Assembly: GCA_020201435.1 (NCBI GenBank)
Contig: JAIVGS010000192.1
Coordinates: 1 to 36,449, forward strand
Reading direction: 5' to 3'
Source: Myxococcales bacterium
GTDB lineage: Bacteria; Myxococcota; Myxococcia; Myxococcales; 40CM-4-68-19
DNA length: 36,449 nt
Notes under the pieces: generated by a model
Seen by the model: only the letters and a program-made list of their open reading frames with translations
Database searches by the model: none
What the model was told of the DNA's origin: nothing
Shown here: in pieces, positions 2,439 to 27,043 of the stretch
Layout: the number at the start of each line of letters is the position of its first letter
How positions within the stretch are numbered: the stretch's first letter is position 1
Translations under genes and position numbers: made by a program

Positions 2439-4922
2439 TCATCGCCGGTAGCGCGGAAGCCGTACTCCTTGCGACAGCGCCGGCTCGAAGAGATCGCCCA
2501 GCTGCCGCAGCCGATCCGGCATCGTCCGCAGGTTGAACGCCTTCGGATCGAGCCCCGGCTTTACTTCGCTCCAGCGCAGCGGCGCCGAGACCGGCGCTCC
2601 TTGCGCGCCGCGCAGCGAATACGGCGCGATCACCGTCTTCCCGTATCCGTTCTGCATGCAGTCGAAGTACAGCCGGCCGCGGCGCTGCGACAGCGATCGC
2701 TCGAGGGTGACGCTGGGGAGCTGTTTCGCGATCGTCTCGCCGACCTGGAGCGCGAACGCCTGCGCGTCGTCGAAGGTGTGGCCTTTCGCGAGCGGAACGT
2801 AGATGTGGAGGCCGCGCTTGCCGGTCGTCTTCGGCACGCTCGGCAGCCCGAGCCGATCGAACATTCCCTGCAGGATCTGCGCGACCTCGATCGCCTGTTC
2901 GATGTCCTTTCCCTCCGCGGGATCGAGGTCGAACACGACCCAGTCCGGCTGGGTCAGGCTGTGCGCACGCGAGTGCCAGGCGTGGATCTCGAGCACCGAA
3001 TTCTGCGCCAGCCAGCGCAGCGCGTCGACGCTGTCGGCGACCAGGTGCTTGACCGGCTTCGCCTTGGTGCGCGCGGGCGTCTCGACGAGAGTCATCCACT
3101 CTTCGGCCATTGCGCCGACGTCCTGCTGGAACCACTTCGATCTCTCGATTCCCTGGTTCCAGTGCACCAGGGCGAGCGGCCTCTCGTGAAGCGCCCGGAG
3201 GAGCGCCGGCGCAACCGCTTCGTAATAGACAGCCACGTCCGCTTTGGTGATCTTGTCCTTCGGAAAGAGAAGTCTTCCCGGATTCGACAATTGGATCTGC
3301 GGCTTTTTGCCTGAGGCCTGAGGCCTGAGGCCCGAGGCCTTCTCCCTCACGCACTCTTCCGGTTTCTTGTCTGCCCTGAGCCCCTGAAAAGCGGGATGAC
3401 GGAGTTTTCCGTCGGACGTCCACTCGGTGAAGCGGACCTGCGCGACGAGGCGCGGAGCGACCCAGTGCGCGTCGCGCATGCGCGGAGCGCCGCGCGCAAC
3501 GGGCGTATCGACGAGATCTTTCGATAATTCCTTTTTCAATCCGGCGCGTTGTTTCGAGCTGAATCCCGTCCCGACCTTGCCGGCGAATTCGTATCCTCCG
3601 CGGCCGTCCGCGACGGCGAGCAACAGCGCGCCGAGAGACCCCGACGCGTTGCCCTTCCCCGGCGTCCACCCGACGATCGCGAGCTCCTGGTTCGCCTGCG
3701 CCTTGAGCTTCAGCCACTCGCGCGATCGGCCCTTTTCGTACAGCGATCCCGGGGCCTTCAGGATCAATCCTTCCAGGCCCCGCGCGCGCATGGCTTCCAG
3801 CGCCTCCGGGATCGCGCCGGGAACTTCTTCGGCGATGCGAAGCTCCGGCGGCGCGTTGGACAGCAGGCTGTGCAACAGGTCCCGGCGCTCCTGCAGCGGC
3901 CGTCGGCGCAGATCCTCGCCGTCGAGCCGCAGCACGTCGAACGCGAAGAGCACCGCGTCCTCGTCGCGGCCCTGCTGGATCAACTCGAACCGCGGCACGC
4001 CCTCGGCGTCGAGCACGCAAACTTCGCCGTCGATCACCGCGTCGCCGACGACGATCTGCGAAAGCGCCCGCGCGACGCGCGGAAACCGCGCCGAGAGGTC
4101 GAGCGCATTGCGCGTCCACATCGCCAGCCGTCCGTTGGAGAGCGCGGACAGCGCGCGATAGCCGTCGTACTTCACCTCGGCGATCCACTTTCCCGGCGGC
4201 GCCTCGTCGACCAGCGTCGCGAGCATCGGCGGCATGTATCCGGCGAGGATCGCGTCCGGCGCCGCGCGCGGCGCTCGCAGCTTCCCGCTTCGCTCCGGGC
4301 CGCGGGTCGCGATCCGCCCGCTCACCACCGACTCCGGTCGCTCGGCGATCACGTCGTACGCCGGGTTTTCCGCCCCGTCCTTCGCCTTGAACATCAACCA
4401 CTGCGCCTTGCCCGGTGCACCGCCATGCGTCCGCACCAGGTGCCACTGCCCGCGCAGCTTGTGCCCTTCGAACTGCACGACGATGTGGCCCTTCTTGCGC
4501 TGTTGCGAGAGCTGGCCCGGCGGCACCGAATCGCAGATGCCGTTGTCCCAGATCAGCGAATCGCCCGCGCCATATTCGCCGTCGGGAATCCGCCCTTCGA
4601 AGCTGCCGTACTCGAGCGGATGGTCCTCGGTCTGGATCGCGAGACGCTTCTGCGCGGGATCGTAGCTCGGCCCCTTGGGGACCGACCAGGAGGCCAGTGC
4701 GTCGTCCATCTCCAGCCGCACGTCGTAGTGGAGCCGCGTCGCGTCATGCTTGTGCACCACGAAGCCGGGCTTGTCGTGCTCCGGCGCCGCGCCCGGCGCC
4801 GGCTCGTTGGTGATCGAGAAGTCGCGCTTCGCGCGATACTCGTCGAGGTTTCGCCGCAGCGGCGCGCTCTTCGAAGGCTTGCGAGAGGCCATGCGTTTGC
4901 CCGACTTGCGCGGAACCGGCAT
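2439..4922 (-). CDS. ligD: Multifunctional DNA ligase D (3'-phosphoesterase, ATP ligase and polymerase domains)
   Basis: N-terminal FVVHKHDATRLHYDVRLEMDDALASWSVPKGPS (PE domain), central EVKYDGYRALSAL (ligase KxDG motif), C-terminal VVFDLDPAEGKD...LHIYVPL (Pol domain). A TTG at 4928 is an alternative start. Confidence 0.95.
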   Translation of the reverse strand: MPVPRKSGKRMASRKPSKSAPLRRNLDEYRAKRDFSITNEPAPGAAPEHDKPGFVVHKHDATRLHYDVRLEMDDALASWSVPKGPSYDPAQKRLAIQTEDHPLEYGSFEGRIPDGEYGAGDSLIWDNGICDSVPPGQLSQQRKKGHIVVQFEGHKLRGQWHLVRTHGGAPGKAQWLMFKAKDGAENPAYDVIAERPESVVSGRIATRGPERSGKLRAPRAAPDAILAGYMPPMLATLVDEAPPGKWIAEVKYDGYRALSALSNGRLAMWTRNALDLSARFPRVARALSQIVVGDAVIDGEVCVLDAEGVPRFELIQQGRDEDAVLFAFDVLRLDGEDLRRRPLQERRDLLHSLLSNAPPELRIAEEVPGAIPEALEAMRARGLEGLILKAPGSLYEKGRSREWLKLKAQANQELAIVGWTPGKGNASGSLGALLLAVADGRGGYEFAGKVGTGFSSKQRAGLKKELSKDLVDTPVARGAPRMRDAHWVAPRLVAQVRFTEWTSDGKLRHPAFQGLRADKKPEECVREKASGLRPQASGKKPQIQLSNPGRLLFPKDKITKADVAVYYEAVAPALLRALHERPLALVHWNQGIERSKWFQQDVGAMAEEWMTLVETPARTKAKPVKHLVADSVDALRWLAQNSVLEIHAWHSRAHSLTQPDWVVFDLDPAEGKDIEQAIEVAQILQGMFDRLGLPSVPKTTGKRGLHIYVPLAKGHTFDDAQAFALQVGETIAKQLPSVTLERSLSQRRGRLYFDCMQNGYGKTVIAPYSLRGAQGAPVSAPLRWSEVKPGLDPKAFNLRTMPDRLRQLGDLFEPALSQGVRLPRYRR
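3310..3339. repeat. Heptanucleotide tract (CCTGAGG)x3-CCCGAGG-CC inside the ligD linker
   Basis: Read directly: cctgaggcctgaggcctgaggcccgaggcc. Confidence 0.95.
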
Positions 4923-4940
4923 GCGCAAACGGTCGGCATG

Positions 4941-5753
4941 CTAGCGCAGGAATGCCAGCAGAAGCTCGTTGACGCGGTCCGCGGCCTCGGCGTGGACCCA
5001 GTGGCCCGCCTCGGCGATCCGCTCGACCCGCGCGTTCGGAACCCACCGCGGATCCGGTTCCGCGAGCTCCTTCCCCAGCCATCGATCGCGCTCGCCCCAG
5101 AGGACCAGGACCGGCGCTTCGATCGCCCGCCACCGCAGCGAGGGATGGCGCAGCGCGGCCCGGTAATAATGAATCGGCGGAGATCGATCGCGAACGCTCT
5201 GCACGATGATCTCGATCTCGTCCGGCGTGTGGATCTTGCGGTACAGGCGCCGCAGCGCCTCGTCGGTCATGAAACGCTCGGGGAAAAAAGGAAGCTGGAA
5301 GAAAAAGATGTACCAGCTCTTTCGCAACTGCCGCGGGGTCCAGAGCCGCCGCAACACCCGCTGCGGGTGGGGGATGTTGAGCTGCGCGAGCCGCCGCACG
5401 CGCTCGGGACGCCACATCGCGACGTACCAGGCGACGTAGCCGCCCCAGTCGTGTCCGACGACGTCGGCGCGATCGCGACCGAGCGCCTCGATCAGCGACG
5501 CCACGTCGCCGACGAGATGCTTCATTCGATACGAGTCGACTCCGCGCGGTTTGTCCGATCCACCGTATCCGCGCAGATCGGGGGCGACCGCGCGGAATCC
5601 GGCCGCCGCCAGCGCGGGAAGCTGCCTGCGCCAGGAGATCCGGCAATCGGGAAATCCGTGCAGGAGCAGGACCAGCGGCCCGTCGCGCGTACCCATCGCG
5701 TCGCAGCGCATGCGCACTCCGCCCGCCTGCACGTCGAGCTCTTCGAGGGTCAA
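4941..5753 (-). CDS. Alpha/beta hydrolase (epoxide hydrolase-like)
   Basis: LLLHGFPDCRISWRRQLPALAAAGFRAVAPDLRGYGGSDKP, VVGHDWGGYVAW nucleophile elbow, AGHWVHAEAADRVNELL. Confidence 0.9.
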   Translation of the reverse strand: MTLEELDVQAGGVRMRCDAMGTRDGPLVLLLHGFPDCRISWRRQLPALAAAGFRAVAPDLRGYGGSDKPRGVDSYRMKHLVGDVASLIEALGRDRADVVGHDWGGYVAWYVAMWRPERVRRLAQLNIPHPQRVLRRLWTPRQLRKSWYIFFFQLPFFPERFMTDEALRRLYRKIHTPDEIEIIVQSVRDRSPPIHYYRAALRHPSLRWRAIEAPVLVLWGERDRWLGKELAEPDPRWVPNARVERIAEAGHWVHAEAADRVNELLLAFLR

Positions 5754-15745: not shown

Positions 15746-16663
15746 ATGAAGTTCGTCATGTTCGGATCAGGCGGCGTCGGCGGCTATTACGGCGCGCGCC
15801 TCGTCCAGGCCGGAAACGAGGTCGTCTTCGTCGCGCGCGGCGCGCATGCCGCCAGGATGCGCGAAAAGGGACTAAGTATAAAAAGCGAAACCGGGGACGC
15901 GCTCATCAGCCCGGTGAACGTCGTCGAAGACCCCGCCCGCGCCGGCGACGCCGACGTCATCTTCGTCGCCGTCAAGCTCTGGGACAGCGAGAGCGCGGCG
16001 AACGCGATCAAGCCGATCATCGGCCCCCGCACGACCGTCGTCTCGCTGCAGAACGGCGTCGACAAGGACGACGTCCTCGCCGGCGCGGCCGGCCGCGAGC
16101 ACGTCGTCGGCGGCATCACCCACATCGGCGCGGTCATCGCCGAGCCGGGCGTGATCGCCCACACCGGCAAGCTCCAGCGCGTCACGCTCGGCGAGCTCGC
16201 CAAAGGCCCGCCTTCCCCGCGCGTGATCGCGATCGTCGCGGCGCTGGCGCGGGCGAAGATCGAGGCCGTCGCGAGCGACGACATCGTCAAGGCGACCTGG
16301 GAGAAGTTCGTCTTCCTCACCTCGTTGTCGGGCATGACCGCGCTGACCCGAAAGCCGGTCGGCCCCGTCCGCGACAACCCGGCGACGCGCGCGATGCTGC
16401 GCGACGCGCTCGAGGAGACCGCCGCCGTCGCCCGCGCCGAGGGCGTCCCGCTCGCCGAAGACCTCCCCGAGAAGCAGCTCAAGATGATCGACGGCCTGAA
16501 CCCGGCGATGACCTCGTCGATGGCCCAGGATCTCGCGCGCGGAAAGCGGCTCGAGCTCGAGTGGCTGAGCGGCGCCGTCGTCCGCCGCGGCGAGGCGCGC
16601 GGCCAGAAGACGCCGGTGCACCGCGCGATCCATGCCGCGCTAGTGCTGCACGCGAACCCCTGA
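15746..16663 (+). CDS. panE: 2-dehydropantoate 2-reductase family protein
   Basis: MKFVMFGSGGVGGYYGARLVQAGNEVVFVARGAHAARMREKGL...LQNGVDKDDVL; ApbA/PanE fold. Confidence 0.88.
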   Translation: MKFVMFGSGGVGGYYGARLVQAGNEVVFVARGAHAARMREKGLSIKSETGDALISPVNVVEDPARAGDADVIFVAVKLWDSESAANAIKPIIGPRTTVVSLQNGVDKDDVLAGAAGREHVVGGITHIGAVIAEPGVIAHTGKLQRVTLGELAKGPPSPRVIAIVAALARAKIEAVASDDIVKATWEKFVFLTSLSGMTALTRKPVGPVRDNPATRAMLRDALEETAAVARAEGVPLAEDLPEKQLKMIDGLNPAMTSSMAQDLARGKRLELEWLSGAVVRRGEARGQKTPVHRAIHAALVLHANP

Positions 16664-18295
16664 ATCGTCGTCGAGCATCAGCCACTCGATGACCGACACC
16701 GGCAGGCTGCCGTAGGACAACAGCTCGTCGTGAAACGCGCCGAGACGGAAGGAAGCGCCGCGCCGATCGCGATACCGCCCGAGCAGCCCCATGATCTGCC
16801 ACTTCCCGGTGATGTACGCGATCTTCTGCAGCGGGCTCGCCGCCGCGCCCGCCGCCTCGCCCTCGGCAGCCTCGCGATCGAGCCCGCCCGCGTCCATGAA
16901 GTAGCGCACCGCCTCTTCGAAGCTCCACTTGCCGGTGTGCAGGTTGACGTCGACCCCGATCCGCGCCGCCCGGTACCGCGAGAGCCGCAGCACCTGCGCC
17001 TGCCCCGCGGACCCCTCCGGGTACAACCCCTGCCGCGAGAGCATCTCTTCGCCGTACAGCGCCCACCCCTCGACGAAGACGTTGTCCCCCTGCTGCCGCC
17101 GGATCTCGTCGGTGAGATGATTCGCGATCGAAAGCTGCAGGAAATGCCCCGGAATCCCCTCGTGCCCGAGGATCGGCCGAGGGTCCTCGATCGCCGCGCG
17201 GATGTAGAAGTTGCCGCTCTTCGGGTTGTAGGTGGGGATGAAATAGAACCCCTCCGGGTCGTTGTCGTAGAGCCCCGGCGGGTTCATGAACCCGCCCGGC
17301 GACGTCGGCTTGAACGCTTCCGGAAGCTGCCGGATGGTGAACGGCCCGAGATACGCCGGCAGCGTCACCAGCCGCCGCTCGCGGAGGAAATCGATCATCT
17401 CCTTCTCTCGCGCCTGGTACGCGGCCAGGAACGCCTGCTGGTCGGCCGGCACGCGGGCGGCGCGCGACGGATCCGGCGAGGCGAGCGACGGATCGCGCAG
17501 CAGCGACTCCAGCCCGCGGTAGCGGTTCAACTCGGCGACCCCGAGCATCGCCAGCTGGTCGGCATCGAGCGGCAGCAGGTTGACCTGGTGCAGCAGCTCG
17601 TCGTACCGCGCCCGCCCCATCGGCGCCCATGCCGCCATCTTCGGGATCCGCTCCTCCAGCCACGCCGCGAATCCGTGCAGCGCCGCGAGCGCGCCGTCGC
17701 GCGCTTTCACCAGCGCGTCCTTCTCCGCCGGCGACAGGTCCGCCGCCAGCGACATCAGGCTGCCGAGATAGAGATCGTCGCCCCCGCGCGCCGACTGCGC
17801 GGCCAGCCGTGCGTACAGCGCGATCGGCTTCGTCAGATTGCGCCGGGCCTGCTCGAGAAACGCCGGCATCTTTTGCAGCCGCTGCGTCGCCGCCAGCGCG
17901 CGCGTCCGCGGCAGCGCGTACTCCTTCTTGAGCAGCGAAAAGATGGCCGAGGAACACTCGCCGACGTAGATCTGCGGATCCTTCTCCTCCGGCTCGAGGA
18001 GTCCGCCGTAGACGCGATCGCGCTCGAGCTGCGCACGGAGCAGGACCGCGTCGACGCGATCGTCCTTGCTCCACCCCGAAGTCTGCAGCGCCTTCACCTG
18101 CCCGAGGATCGCCTCGACGTGACGCCTGCGCTCGCGAAAGGCGGTGGGGTCGGAGAGGTCCGCATCCCACATGTGCAGACCCTGGTCGCTGCTCGTCACC
18201 GGATCGATCCGGTTGCGCCAGTCGTAATAGTCGCGCGCGATCGCGCGCATGGCGGAGGGATCGGAAGCAGCCAGCAGGGCGAGAAGGAGGAGCAT
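16640..18295 (-). CDS. DUF885 family (putative metallopeptidase)
   Basis: ILGHEGIPGHFLQLSIANHL (HEGIPGH motif), FVEGWALYGEEM, N-terminal hydrophobic segment MLLLLALLAASD. Confidence 0.9.
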   Translation of the reverse strand: MLLLLALLAASDPSAMRAIARDYYDWRNRIDPVTSSDQGLHMWDADLSDPTAFRERRRHVEAILGQVKALQTSGWSKDDRVDAVLLRAQLERDRVYGGLLEPEEKDPQIYVGECSSAIFSLLKKEYALPRTRALAATQRLQKMPAFLEQARRNLTKPIALYARLAAQSARGGDDLYLGSLMSLAADLSPAEKDALVKARDGALAALHGFAAWLEERIPKMAAWAPMGRARYDELLHQVNLLPLDADQLAMLGVAELNRYRGLESLLRDPSLASPDPSRAARVPADQQAFLAAYQAREKEMIDFLRERRLVTLPAYLGPFTIRQLPEAFKPTSPGGFMNPPGLYDNDPEGFYFIPTYNPKSGNFYIRAAIEDPRPILGHEGIPGHFLQLSIANHLTDEIRRQQGDNVFVEGWALYGEEMLSRQGLYPEGSAGQAQVLRLSRYRAARIGVDVNLHTGKWSFEEAVRYFMDAGGLDREAAEGEAAGAAASPLQKIAYITGKWQIMGLLGRYRDRRGASFRLGAFHDELLSYGSLPVSVIEWLMLDDDSGVRVQH

Positions 18296-18360
18296 CGGCG
18301 CAGGCTAGCAGCACGCTTGCCCATGCCGCGAGTCCGTGCGATGGACCAAGAGGGAGTCCG

Positions 18361-19068
18361 ATGGCCGGCGATCCGGCTTCAAAGGGCAAGGAGAAAGCCT
18401 GGATGGCCGACGACGGCAAGCTGAACCGGTGGCGCCTCTTCGCCGAGCTGTCGACGGCGGACGCGGACGTGGTCCTCAAAGCGTGCGAGGGGCGGATCCT
18501 CGTCGGCGGCGAGGAGCTGTTCCACGAGAACGATTCCGGCGACTCGCTCTTCATCGTGCAGAGCGGGCGGGTCGACATCTTCAAGAACATCCGCGGCGAC
18601 GTCGATCGATCGCTGGCCTCGTTCGGCCCCGGCGACGTGATCGGCGAGATGAGCTTCATCGACGGCGCGCGGCGATCGGCGACCGCGCGCACCACCGAGA
18701 GCTCGGAGTTTCTGGTCCTCTCGCGGGCGAGCTTCGCGAAAGTGCAGAAGGAGCGGCCCGACATCGCCGCGGCGTTCTTCCGGAACATGGCGGCGATCGT
18801 CGCCACCCGCCTGCGCACGACCAACGAGCTGTACCGCGAAGCCGTCTCGTTCGGCATCGAAGCGACCGGCGCGCATACGCTGAATCTCAAGAACATGGCC
18901 GAAGAGCTGCGCCGCGTGACGCTGCACCTGGTCGGCGGCACCTCGGTCTCCGGCCGCATTCTACAGATGGATCACCACGCCGCCGGCTACACCGTCGTCC
19001 TCAAGATGGAGAACGACCGGCTGACGGTCGTCCCTTACCACGCGATCCAGAGGATCGACCTTGCATAG
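18361..19068 (+). CDS. Cyclic-nucleotide-binding-domain protein with Hfq/Sm-like C-terminal domain
   Basis: cNBD: EELFHENDSGDSLFIVQSGRVDIFKNI...FGPGDVIGEMSFIDGARRSATARTTESSEFLVLSR; C-terminus VTLHLVGGTSVSGRILQMDHHAAGYTVVLKMENDRLTVVPYHAIQRIDLA. Confidence 0.88.
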   Translation: MAGDPASKGKEKAWMADDGKLNRWRLFAELSTADADVVLKACEGRILVGGEELFHENDSGDSLFIVQSGRVDIFKNIRGDVDRSLASFGPGDVIGEMSFIDGARRSATARTTESSEFLVLSRASFAKVQKERPDIAAAFFRNMAAIVATRLRTTNELYREAVSFGIEATGAHTLNLKNMAEELRRVTLHLVGGTSVSGRILQMDHHAAGYTVVLKMENDRLTVVPYHAIQRIDLA

Positions 19069-19504
19069 GTGGCCGGTGACCATCGAGCTCCCCGTCCAAT
19101 GGGGAGACATGGACTCGTTCAACCACGTGAACAACGTCGTCTACCTGCGCTGGTTCGAGTCGGCGCGGATCGCGTACTTCGAGCGGGCCGGCATCCTGTC
19201 GCGGATGCCGGAGATCGGCCCGATCCAGGCCCGCCAGGTGATCGACTATCGATTGCCGCTCCGCTATCCCGACCGGCTGCTGGTCTCGGCGACGGTGACG
19301 AAGCTCGGCAACACCTCGTTCACCATGGGCCTGCGGGCCCGAAGCCACGGCCACGATCGGGCCATCGCGGCCGAGGGCGAGGCGGTGATCGTGATGGTCG
19401 ATTATCGAAGCAATCGCAAAGTCCCGCTCGGCGACGCGCTGAGAAAAAACATCGAGGATCTCGAGTCGACCGGGCCCGAGCTCCCGCCGCCGCAGGGCGA
19501 CTGA
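19061..19504 (+). CDS. Acyl-CoA thioesterase, hot-dog fold (YbgC/4HBT-like)
   Basis: VQWGDMDSFNHVNNVVYLRWFESARIAYFERAGI; TTG start at 19061 or GTG at 19076. Confidence 0.9.
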   Translation: MHRWPVTIELPVQWGDMDSFNHVNNVVYLRWFESARIAYFERAGILSRMPEIGPIQARQVIDYRLPLRYPDRLLVSATVTKLGNTSFTMGLRARSHGHDRAIAAEGEAVIVMVDYRSNRKVPLGDALRKNIEDLESTGPELPPPQGD

Positions 19505-22712: not shown

Positions 22713-22771
22713 GGGCGGGTAGGAGCGCGTAAAGGTTGCCGACGACCCTCGACCAAGGTCAAAATGTACAT

Positions 22772-23314
22772 ATGCGCCAGAACCTGCGACGCCATCACCG
22801 CGGCTTCACGCTCATCGAGTTGATGATCGTGGTCGCATTGATCGGGATCATCTCCAGCCTCGCGATCCCGAACTACCTCAGGTTCACGGCGCGTTCGCAG
22901 CGGGCCGAGATGCTCGAGACGGTCAGCAAGATGAAGCTGTTCTTCAAGACCACGTACGACAACAGCGGCACGTTCATCACGCCGAATACGCCCTCCGCCG
23001 GCCAGCAGAGCGACGTCAACCCCGACCCCGCGCTCAGCCCGGTGGGGCAGCCGGCGGTGTGGAACAACCACCGCGGCGGCTGGACCGACTTGCCCTTCCC
23101 GCCGGAAGGCGCGCTGCGCATGCGCTACGCCTATACGCCCGACGCCGACCACGTCACCATCGATGTCTGCGGCTCGTTCCCCGGCATGGGACCTGTGACC
23201 AGCGTGACCTGCGCCGCGACCAGCCTCGGACCGATGACGGGCAACTACCGCTACATCGAGGTCATGTACCCGAACGGGACCTCGGACGTCACCGAGCTTC
23301 CGACCGCCCTCTGA
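22772..23314 (+). CDS. Type IV pilin / pseudopilin-like protein with prepilin cleavage motif
   Basis: RGFTLIELMIVVALIGIISSLAIPNYLRFTARSQRAE; type III prepilin signal. Confidence 0.9.
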   Translation: MRQNLRRHHRGFTLIELMIVVALIGIISSLAIPNYLRFTARSQRAEMLETVSKMKLFFKTTYDNSGTFITPNTPSAGQQSDVNPDPALSPVGQPAVWNNHRGGWTDLPFPPEGALRMRYAYTPDADHVTIDVCGSFPGMGPVTSVTCAATSLGPMTGNYRYIEVMYPNGTSDVTELPTAL

Positions 23315-25778: not shown

Positions 25779-26201
25779 ATGTCGAGAAGGGCGCTCTGGT
25801 TCTTCCAGCGGCTCGGACCGGGCGAGATCAAGCGGATATCGAATCCCTCGATGCAGCGTTTTCTGGTCGGGGAGCGGCCGCTGCAGCACGACGGCGACGG
25901 ATTCGTGCGGTGCATCGGGATGTCGCTCGAACTGCGCGACAAGAAGCCGGCGATGGTGGCGCGGGTCTGGTTTTCCAAGATTCGCGTGCGGGACGACGGG
26001 CGGGTCGATCCGCACCATCGCCACGAGATGGCGAAGCTCGCGCAGGCGCAGGCGGAGCAGACCGAGTCGTCGGTGGTGAGCGCGGGACACCGGTTCGCGC
26101 AGCGGAGGCTGTCGCACCTCGCGGAGTGGCGGCCGGAGGAGAAGGACCTCGTGGCGCTGCGGACGGTGGTGAATACGCGCGCCGGGAAGGAAATGCTTTA
26201 A
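25779..26201 (+). CDS. Hypothetical protein (140 aa)
   Basis: Intact ORF MSRRALWFFQRLGPGEIKRISNPSMQRFLVGERPLQHDGDGFVRCIGMSLELRDKKPAMVARVWFSKIRV; no family recognised. Confidence 0.7.
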   Translation: MSRRALWFFQRLGPGEIKRISNPSMQRFLVGERPLQHDGDGFVRCIGMSLELRDKKPAMVARVWFSKIRVRDDGRVDPHHRHEMAKLAQAQAEQTESSVVSAGHRFAQRRLSHLAEWRPEEKDLVALRTVVNTRAGKEML

Positions 26202-26204
26202 GAA

Positions 26205-26375
26205 CCGTGCCCGTGCCCGTCCCTGTTTTCGAGCAGGTGGCCGTCCGCGTTTTCGTTTCGAGCAGGTGCCAGTGCCCGTGCCGGTGGGCAATACCCGCAC
26301 GGGCACAGGCACGAGCCCCCGAAAACCTGCACAGCACGGGCGCGAGACTCCGCAAACGGGGACGGGCACCGGCAC
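26205..26375. repeat. Nested inverted repeats built from GTGCCC / GGGCAC hexamers in a convergent intergenic region
   Basis: Outer arms 26207-26228 and 26354-26375 (one mismatch, one wobble). Inner arms GTGCCaGTGCCCGTGC 26266-26281 and GCACGGGCACaGGCAC 26297-26312. Confidence 0.88.
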
Positions 26376-26379
26376 TGCT

Positions 26380-27030
26380 TTAGCGGTTCCGAAGCTTGTC
26401 GAGATAAGCGTCGAGCCGCGCTCGAAACGAATCGTCGGCGGCAATGAACTGGACCCCGACGCCCGGCGTCGCCGCCGTCCCCGCCACCACCCGGTGCAGC
26501 ACGATGCCCTGCACTTCCAGCGGCGGCTTGCCGTCCGGCAGCTCGAGGATCACGTGCACGATCTGGTCGACGGCCGGCGGCGCGTCGGTCTCGATGAACA
26601 TGCCGCTCGCCGAGAGGTTCAGCGCCTCGCGCTGGGCGCGGTGCTTGCCAACGTTGAGCGTGACCCGGAAGCGGTCCAGGTAGCGCGGTAAAAAGCGCCT
26701 GTTTTCGCCGGGTCGCAGCGGTTCGACGTCGAGCGCCGCGACCGCGGCCGAGCCCTTGCGCAGCGCCGAGGCGATGTGCTCGCGGGCCTCGTCGGCGATG
26801 TCGACGAACCTGGCGCGAAAGCCCTCGCCGCCGGACTCGACGACCTCGGCGTGGATCGAATCGCCCGCCGCGATGCCCGGCAGATACAACCGCAGCACGA
26901 CCTGATCGCCGAGGCGCGGTGGCTCGACGCAGCGCACGAACACGCTGTCTTCGTCGAGGTCGCGCGAAGTCGACTGCACCGACTGCCCCTCGGCGACGAA
27001 ACGGACGGGAAAGGCCATCGCTTTGCGCAT
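26380..27030 (-). CDS. PilZ-domain protein (probably tandem PilZ)
   Basis: MRKAMAFPVRFVAEGQSVQSTSRDLDEDSVFVRC...PGDQ-like segment and RRFLPRYLDRFRVTLNVGKHRAQREALNLSASGMFIETDAPPAVDQIVHVILELPDG. Confidence 0.8.
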   Translation of the reverse strand: MRKAMAFPVRFVAEGQSVQSTSRDLDEDSVFVRCVEPPRLGDQVVLRLYLPGIAAGDSIHAEVVESGGEGFRARFVDIADEAREHIASALRKGSAAVAALDVEPLRPGENRRFLPRYLDRFRVTLNVGKHRAQREALNLSASGMFIETDAPPAVDQIVHVILELPDGKPPLEVQGIVLHRVVAGTAATPGVGVQFIAADDSFRARLDAYLDKLRNR

Positions 27031-27043
27031 GTGCCTTGAACAT

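Follow-up and report, generated by a model that had tools for sequence, protein, structure and literature searches.

A conserved fusion of a cyclic-nucleotide-binding domain to an Hfq-like Sm domain, linked to PilT-type ATPase genes: a candidate regulator of the type IV pilus motor

The locus and a deleted pilT gene

The window is the whole 36,449-nucleotide stretch of DNA that was analysed, contig JAIVGS010000192.1 of a Myxococcales bacterium (assembly GCA_020201435.1). Translation returned the forward-strand open reading frame of 235 residues exactly as an earlier note, made from the sequence alone, had described it (Table 1). The product carries an N-terminal cyclic-nucleotide-binding (cNMP) domain of the CRP type and a C-terminal Hfq-like Sm domain, and is referred to here as cNMP-Sm. 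The gene overlaps at its 3' end a thioesterase gene that the neighbour table records beside it in some relatives only. Less than about 8 kb downstream are genes for a pilin-like protein with an N-methylation motif (22748-23314, forward strand) and a PilZ-domain protein (26383-27039, reverse strand). A short low-complexity stretch of Pro-Val/Thr-Gly repeats (GGCACG-type units) lies just past the PilZ gene at about 26200-26360.

Table 1. Coordinates of the features at the cNMP-Sm locus, numbered from the first nucleotide of the window.
Feature	Position	Strand	Evidence
DUF885 protein, divergent, upstream (context only, outside the system)	16640..18295	-	PF05960, E 2.8e-73
Former pilT promoter/leader block (GGCTAGCAGCA.GCTTGCCC..TCCGTGCGATG)	18300..18360	+	Precedes pilT in G020 (DNA comparison, L065)
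Scar of deleted pilT: ATGGCC start joined to last codons	18361..18402	+	DNA alignment with the end of G020 pilT
cNMP-Sm fusion gene, form of the earlier note (235 aa plus stop)	18361..19068	+	Translation; homologues
cNMP-Sm gene, orthologous form (ATG 18403, 221 aa)	18403..19068	+	Homologues begin at the matching ATG/GTG; upstream DNA alignment
CRP-type cNMP-binding domain, residues ~26-129	18436..18747	+	PF00027; PDB phmmer CRP/PKA-R; Foldseek CRP
Phosphate-binding cassette, G95-E96 to R105-S106-A107	18643..18681	+	Alignment of 12 members
Long C-helix, model residues 133-169	18757..18867	+	AlphaFold2 full-length model; conservation
Hfq-like Sm domain, residues 174-235: helix, five strands, Sm2-like PYHAI	18880..19065	+	PF17209; PDB hmmsearch; hhalign; AlphaFold2; Foldseek
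PYHAI motif, aligned with Hfq YKHAI	19033..19047	+	Family alignments
4HBT-type thioesterase, overlaps the cNMP-Sm 3' end	19061..19504	+	PF13279, E 5.9e-24

A Myxococcota sister species, G020, keeps pilT immediately before cNMP-Sm. Its gene order is DUF885, divergent from pilT, followed by cNMP-Sm and the thioesterase, and its PilT shares 68% identity with the Geobacter-like PilT. In the window the leader block runs into ATGGCC, the start of pilT; next come the final pilT codons with AAGGAGAAAGCCTG, and then the ATG at 18403. Because the leader, the start and the last codons of pilT all remain ahead of the cNMP-Sm gene, pilT was deleted almost completely from this site. A second, different pilT scar is present in G024, while in the other members of the genus the site shows no pilT and no visible scar.

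The ATG at 18403 is the probable ancestral start of the gene, and a ribosome-binding-like AAGGAG precedes it in the DNA alignment at 18388-18393. The former pilT start codon at 18361 shares this reading frame and could serve as an alternative. Residues 1-14 were considered as a conserved feature of the protein and rejected, as they are debris of the deleted upstream pilT. At 18333-18345 there is a TCCGTGCGATGCAC-like element, an inverted repeat (GTGC-N3-GCAC) that is imperfect in the window. This element, a possible regulatory site, is kept in all genus members, upstream of cNMP-Sm or, in G020, of pilT.

The cyclic-nucleotide-binding domain

The Pfam scan identified cNMP_binding (PF00027) at residues 50-129 with an E-value of 1.1e-19, above the cut-off. 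Searching the PDB with phmmer returned CRP and PKA-R matches to the N-terminal domain (down to 1.8e-19), and Foldseek of the full-length model returned CRP matches for the same barrel. The Gly, Glu and Arg of the phosphate-binding cassette are invariant in 12/12 aligned cNMP-Sm members, and by eye the cassette residues are also kept in G859 (GEM...PRSS). The CRP-type barrel proposed in the earlier note was thus recovered, and its suggestion of second-messenger sensing is supported, at the level of sequence, by the invariant cassette. Class III cyclase domains were found in 12/12 carrier genomes searched, with five in the window's genome.

The barrel is followed by a long C-helix that is likely the dimer helix. 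It carries R152 and T154, the latter at the CRP Thr127 position when matched by eye. CRP-type NCBIfam matches stop before or at this helix and no HTH family was found by the Pfam scan at E-values up to 10, in agreement with the note's reading of a C-terminus without HTH. Identity as a CRP transcription factor was ruled out, since the HTH is absent and an Sm fold stands in its place.

The C-terminal Sm domain

The best sequence match for the C-terminal domain is Hfq. Pfam Hfq (PF17209) matched residues 176-232 with an E-value of 4.8e-3 in the whole protein and 4.5e-4 in the isolated domain (20.2 bits, under the 27-bit cut-off). NCBIfam Hfq (TIGR02383) gave 2.3e-4 (21.0 bits, under the 61.7-bit cut-off). 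PF17209 matched 11/12 family members, with a best E-value of 2.8e-5. When a profile of the domain was run against all PDB sequences with hmmsearch, the top matches were mostly Hfq with weak E-values (best 0.054). Using hhalign against a five-sequence Hfq profile an E-value of 4.4e-5 and 69% probability were obtained, both profiles being shallow. In the PYHAI motif P and Y are invariant, and one lineage has S or G in place of the H.

The isolated domain was modelled with AlphaFold2 using a 12-sequence alignment as input. The model consists of one helix and five strands that follow the Sm order (H14-25, E28-33, E38-49, E52-58, E64-68, E72-77), and PYHAI makes a short turn from strand 4 to strand 5. 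Mean pLDDT was 74, reaching 82-89 across most of the barrel. A Foldseek search of the PDB, the check that the earlier note had proposed, returned Hfq for all of the top 50 matches (best E 1.6e-4; TM 0.72 by query, 0.79 by target). The Hfq/Sm-like domain is therefore borne out by PF17209, the predicted strand order and Foldseek, and the non-Sm fold that would have spoken against it was not seen. Two other candidates, PRC-barrel (RimM; PF24986, 4/12 members, best 6e-4) and PilZN (one member of 12, 0.19), were ruled out by the all-Hfq Foldseek result. The full-length model contains the CRP barrel, the long C-helix and, at the C-terminus, the fold seen in the model of the isolated domain; with pLDDT 70, pTM 0.50 and pLDDT below 50 at residues 162-175, its arrangement of domains is not reliable.

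The RNA-contact residues of Hfq were then compared. The proximal (uridine) pocket of Hfq comprises Gln8, Phe42, Lys56 and His57, and the lateral pocket on the rim Asn13, Arg16, Arg17, Ser38 and Phe39 (PMC5379935). Equivalent positions were assigned by sequence alignment rather than structure superposition. The Phe42 position is aromatic across the family (Tyr, Phe or Trp; His in one member) and Tyr in the window. The Lys56 position is Tyr in every member, and the Gln8 position is not conserved. At the His57 position His is retained, including in the window lineage, with Ser in G678 and Gly in G859 as the exceptions. The hhalign alignment places Lys177, Ala180, Glu181, Gln202 and Met203 of the window protein at the five rim positions. 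Thus cNMP-Sm lacks most of the residues with which Hfq contacts RNA, the whole lateral set among them.

Distribution and conservation of the fusion

15 distinct full-length homologues of cNMP-Sm were found. All 7/7 examined genomes of the window's genus (g1) carry the full-length gene. A sister genus has a 21-residue fragment at a contig end, and G013, of another family, has one divergent copy. A second group consists of Geobacter-like and other Desulfobacterota-type genomes (G200, G201, G202, G438, G511, G850, G678, G859). The group names Myxococcota and Desulfobacterota are used here as interpreted from record titles ('Deltaproteobacteria', 'Geobacter sp.') and kinship tables. The fusion is rare, with 4/277 genomes in one class and 4/396 sampled in the phylum, and was absent from 245 cyanobacterial genomes except for two weak partial matches. 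Within the genus dN/dS is 0.03-0.30 and both domains are constrained. The 15 homologues and the low dN/dS indicate that the fusion did not arise by chance. Its members, held under purifying selection, form a conserved family that spans a Myxococcota genus and a scattering of Desulfobacterota-type genomes.

No description of a cNMP-Hfq fusion or of a cNMP-PilT pair was found in the open-licence papers searched. The architecture is real, unusual and, in that literature, apparently undescribed; the earlier note did not recognise it as standard.

Canonical Hfq was also sought. No match exceeded the Pfam cut-off in 187 genomes of the window's phylum, Myxococcota (0/187), and no hfq homologue was found in myxobacteria in published work (PMC5684412). 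The C-terminal domain of cNMP-Sm is the only Hfq-like domain found in the Myxococcota sampled. The Geobacter-like carriers tested (G200-G202) have canonical Hfq as well, and G202 encodes a second, divergent Hfq-like small protein (L051:1507-1785, reverse strand; PF17209, 45.5 bits).

Linkage to PilT-type ATPase genes

A PilT/PilU-type ATPase gene directly adjoins cNMP-Sm in 8/8 genomes of the Desulfobacterota group, the two genes lying from a few up to a few tens of nucleotides apart. It precedes cNMP-Sm in G200, G201, G202 and G438 and follows it in G678, G859, G850 and G511, the last two having a second PilT gene. The five adjacent ATPases tested all exceed the TIGR01420 PilT/PilU cut-off. 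Since each genome of this group has no more than some 4-5 PilT-type genes at E 1e-60, the probability of chance adjacency is low, an estimated 0.2-0.3% per independent lineage (about 10 neighbouring slots in about 4,000 genes). The linkage occurs in at least two independent gene orders. Together with G020, and with pilT scars in two more genomes, it extends to the Myxococcota, while an adjacent pilT was absent from the window, most of its genus and G013 by neighbour comparison.

In G850 and G511 a histidine kinase and an OmpR-type response regulator, recognised by Pfam matches in G850 and from sequence similarity in G511, lie ahead of cNMP-Sm and the two PilT genes, which suggests two-component control of this type of pilus operon. 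At L107:5142-9782 (forward strand) and L108:6229-10853 (reverse strand), cNMP-Sm sits between such a pair and two tandem PilT genes. At L065:1376-2833 (reverse strand) and L067:8538-10022 (forward strand) the operon PilT has an extra N-terminal region of about 120 residues, which has the appearance of a decayed second PilT N-domain with a linker.

The window's genome still has six PilT-type matches at other sites. At one of them (G000:C180:39659-41121, reverse strand; L105 ~3660-5120) a cNMP-binding protein without an Sm domain (168-residue open frame) is encoded directly upstream of a PilT-family gene. The cNMP-PilT partnership therefore recurs, as this is a second pair in the window's own genome.

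Proposed function

One defining feature of Hfq and one of CRP were each absent from cNMP-Sm, and it is filed here as neither; it resembles, and may work like, both fused. The PilT-family operon partner points to a protein rather than RNA as its partner. With moderate confidence, we lean towards cNMP-Sm as a cNMP-responsive regulator of a PilT-family type IV pilus ATPase, where we infer the hexamer, the ligand and the contact with PilT. The Sm domains would assemble into a hexameric ring, and the CRP-type domains would pair via their C-helices. Binding of cAMP or cGMP would alter the ring or its exposure. The ring would stack on the hexameric PilT motor and switch or tune pilus retraction. In the window lineage, because the neighbouring pilT has been deleted, the protein must have another target, which would be a different PilT paralogue or something broader in the pilus.

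Hfq forms hexamers (PMC5379935), as does PilT (PMC6821130). In cyanobacteria Hfq is required for piliation and binds PilB, a pilus ATPase, with RNA substrates not identified (PMC7690835, PMC4390875, PMC8092324). It is this precedent that makes us favour a cNMP-responsive Sm adaptor of PilT. Against such a regulator, the linkage could reflect mere co-regulation, no pilT adjoins the gene in the window, most of its genus or G013, and cyanobacterial Hfq contacts PilB via a C-terminal domain that is peculiar to the PilB of cyanobacteria. The more specific proposal that a cAMP/cGMP-sensing Sm hexamer, stacked ring-to-ring on the PilT hexamer, gates retraction, with Sm rings as wider, possibly RNA-free, ATPase adaptors, is offered tentatively. 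Such a protein would represent a new class of pilus-motor regulator, and the cyanobacterial Hfq-pilus link would be one instance of this broader use.

The earlier note had suggested RNA binding. Its case is weakened, as the proximal pocket keeps the aromatic residue and mostly the histidine, the lateral set is gone and the operon partner is PilT-like. A ligand-gated RNA chaperone, in which the Sm ring binds RNA under cyclic-nucleotide control and which could replace Hfq in Hfq-less Myxococcota, is unlikely. In both sequence and fold the closest family is Hfq, canonical Hfq is missing from the Myxococcota sampled, and the window lineage keeps both the Phe42-position aromatic and His57. These points are set against the Tyr that replaces Lys56 throughout, the loss of Gln8 and the rim residues, the Ser and Gly in G678 and G859, the canonical Hfq of the Geobacter-like carriers tested, and linkage to pilT rather than to RNA genes. 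An RNA role is possible, and likeliest in the window lineage because the histidine was kept there and the neighbouring pilT lost.

Somewhat less likely still, the Sm domain could be an oligomerisation device only, multimerising cNMP sensors that are directed at a different target, not linked to the gene, with co-regulation accounting for the adjacency to pilT. The barrel is indeed kept while RNA-contact residues are lost, and strong constraint persists after loss of pilT, but adjacency to pilT in two gene orders and several lineages, and the Sm-less cNMP-PilT pair in the window's genome, argue otherwise. Finally, that the window species retains a fading relic of a lost pilT operon is very improbable: the adjacent pilT is deleted with a scar left, but the gene is full length throughout the genus with dN/dS far below 1 in both domains.

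If the regulator reading of cNMP-Sm is true, it would connect a cyclic nucleotide directly with pilus retraction and offer a testable explanation for the presence of Hfq at pilus bases. To our knowledge, nearly all known roles of bacterial Sm rings are in RNA binding. Whether cNMP-Sm binds RNA bears on what replaces Hfq in the Myxococcota sampled, where none is known.

Comparison with known systems

Like Hfq (PF17209/TIGR02383), cNMP-Sm has the Sm fold with an N-terminal helix and five strands, the HAI turn between strands 4 and 5, and an aromatic residue at the Phe42 position. Unlike Hfq, it is fused behind a cNMP sensor, scores under the curated cut-offs, is linked to pilT, has a loop between strands 2 and 3 about four residues longer, and shows the substitutions at Lys56, Gln8 and the rim. 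With CRP/FNR factors it shares the cNMP-binding barrel, the phosphate cassette and the C-helix, but the Sm domain replaces the HTH DNA-binding domain.

The complex of cyanobacterial Hfq with PilB1 (and EbsA) at the pilus base likewise ties an Hfq-type Sm protein to a pilus ATPase, and cAMP is a motility signal in cyanobacteria too (PMC7690835). There Hfq is a separate protein that binds the extension motor PilB via the cyanobacteria-specific C-terminal domain, whereas in cNMP-Sm the cNMP sensor is part of the Sm protein itself and the linkage is to a PilT-type ATPase. No direct control of a PilT motor by a mononucleotide (cAMP/cGMP) was found in the open-licence literature. FimX-PilB and MshE are cases of c-di-GMP control of pilus motors (PMC5595344, PMC7096442). 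The proposed action of cNMP-Sm is similar, that of a second-messenger protein on a pilus ATPase, but it differs in its mononucleotide (cAMP/cGMP-type) sensor, its PilT-type ATPase and its Sm-fold adaptor.
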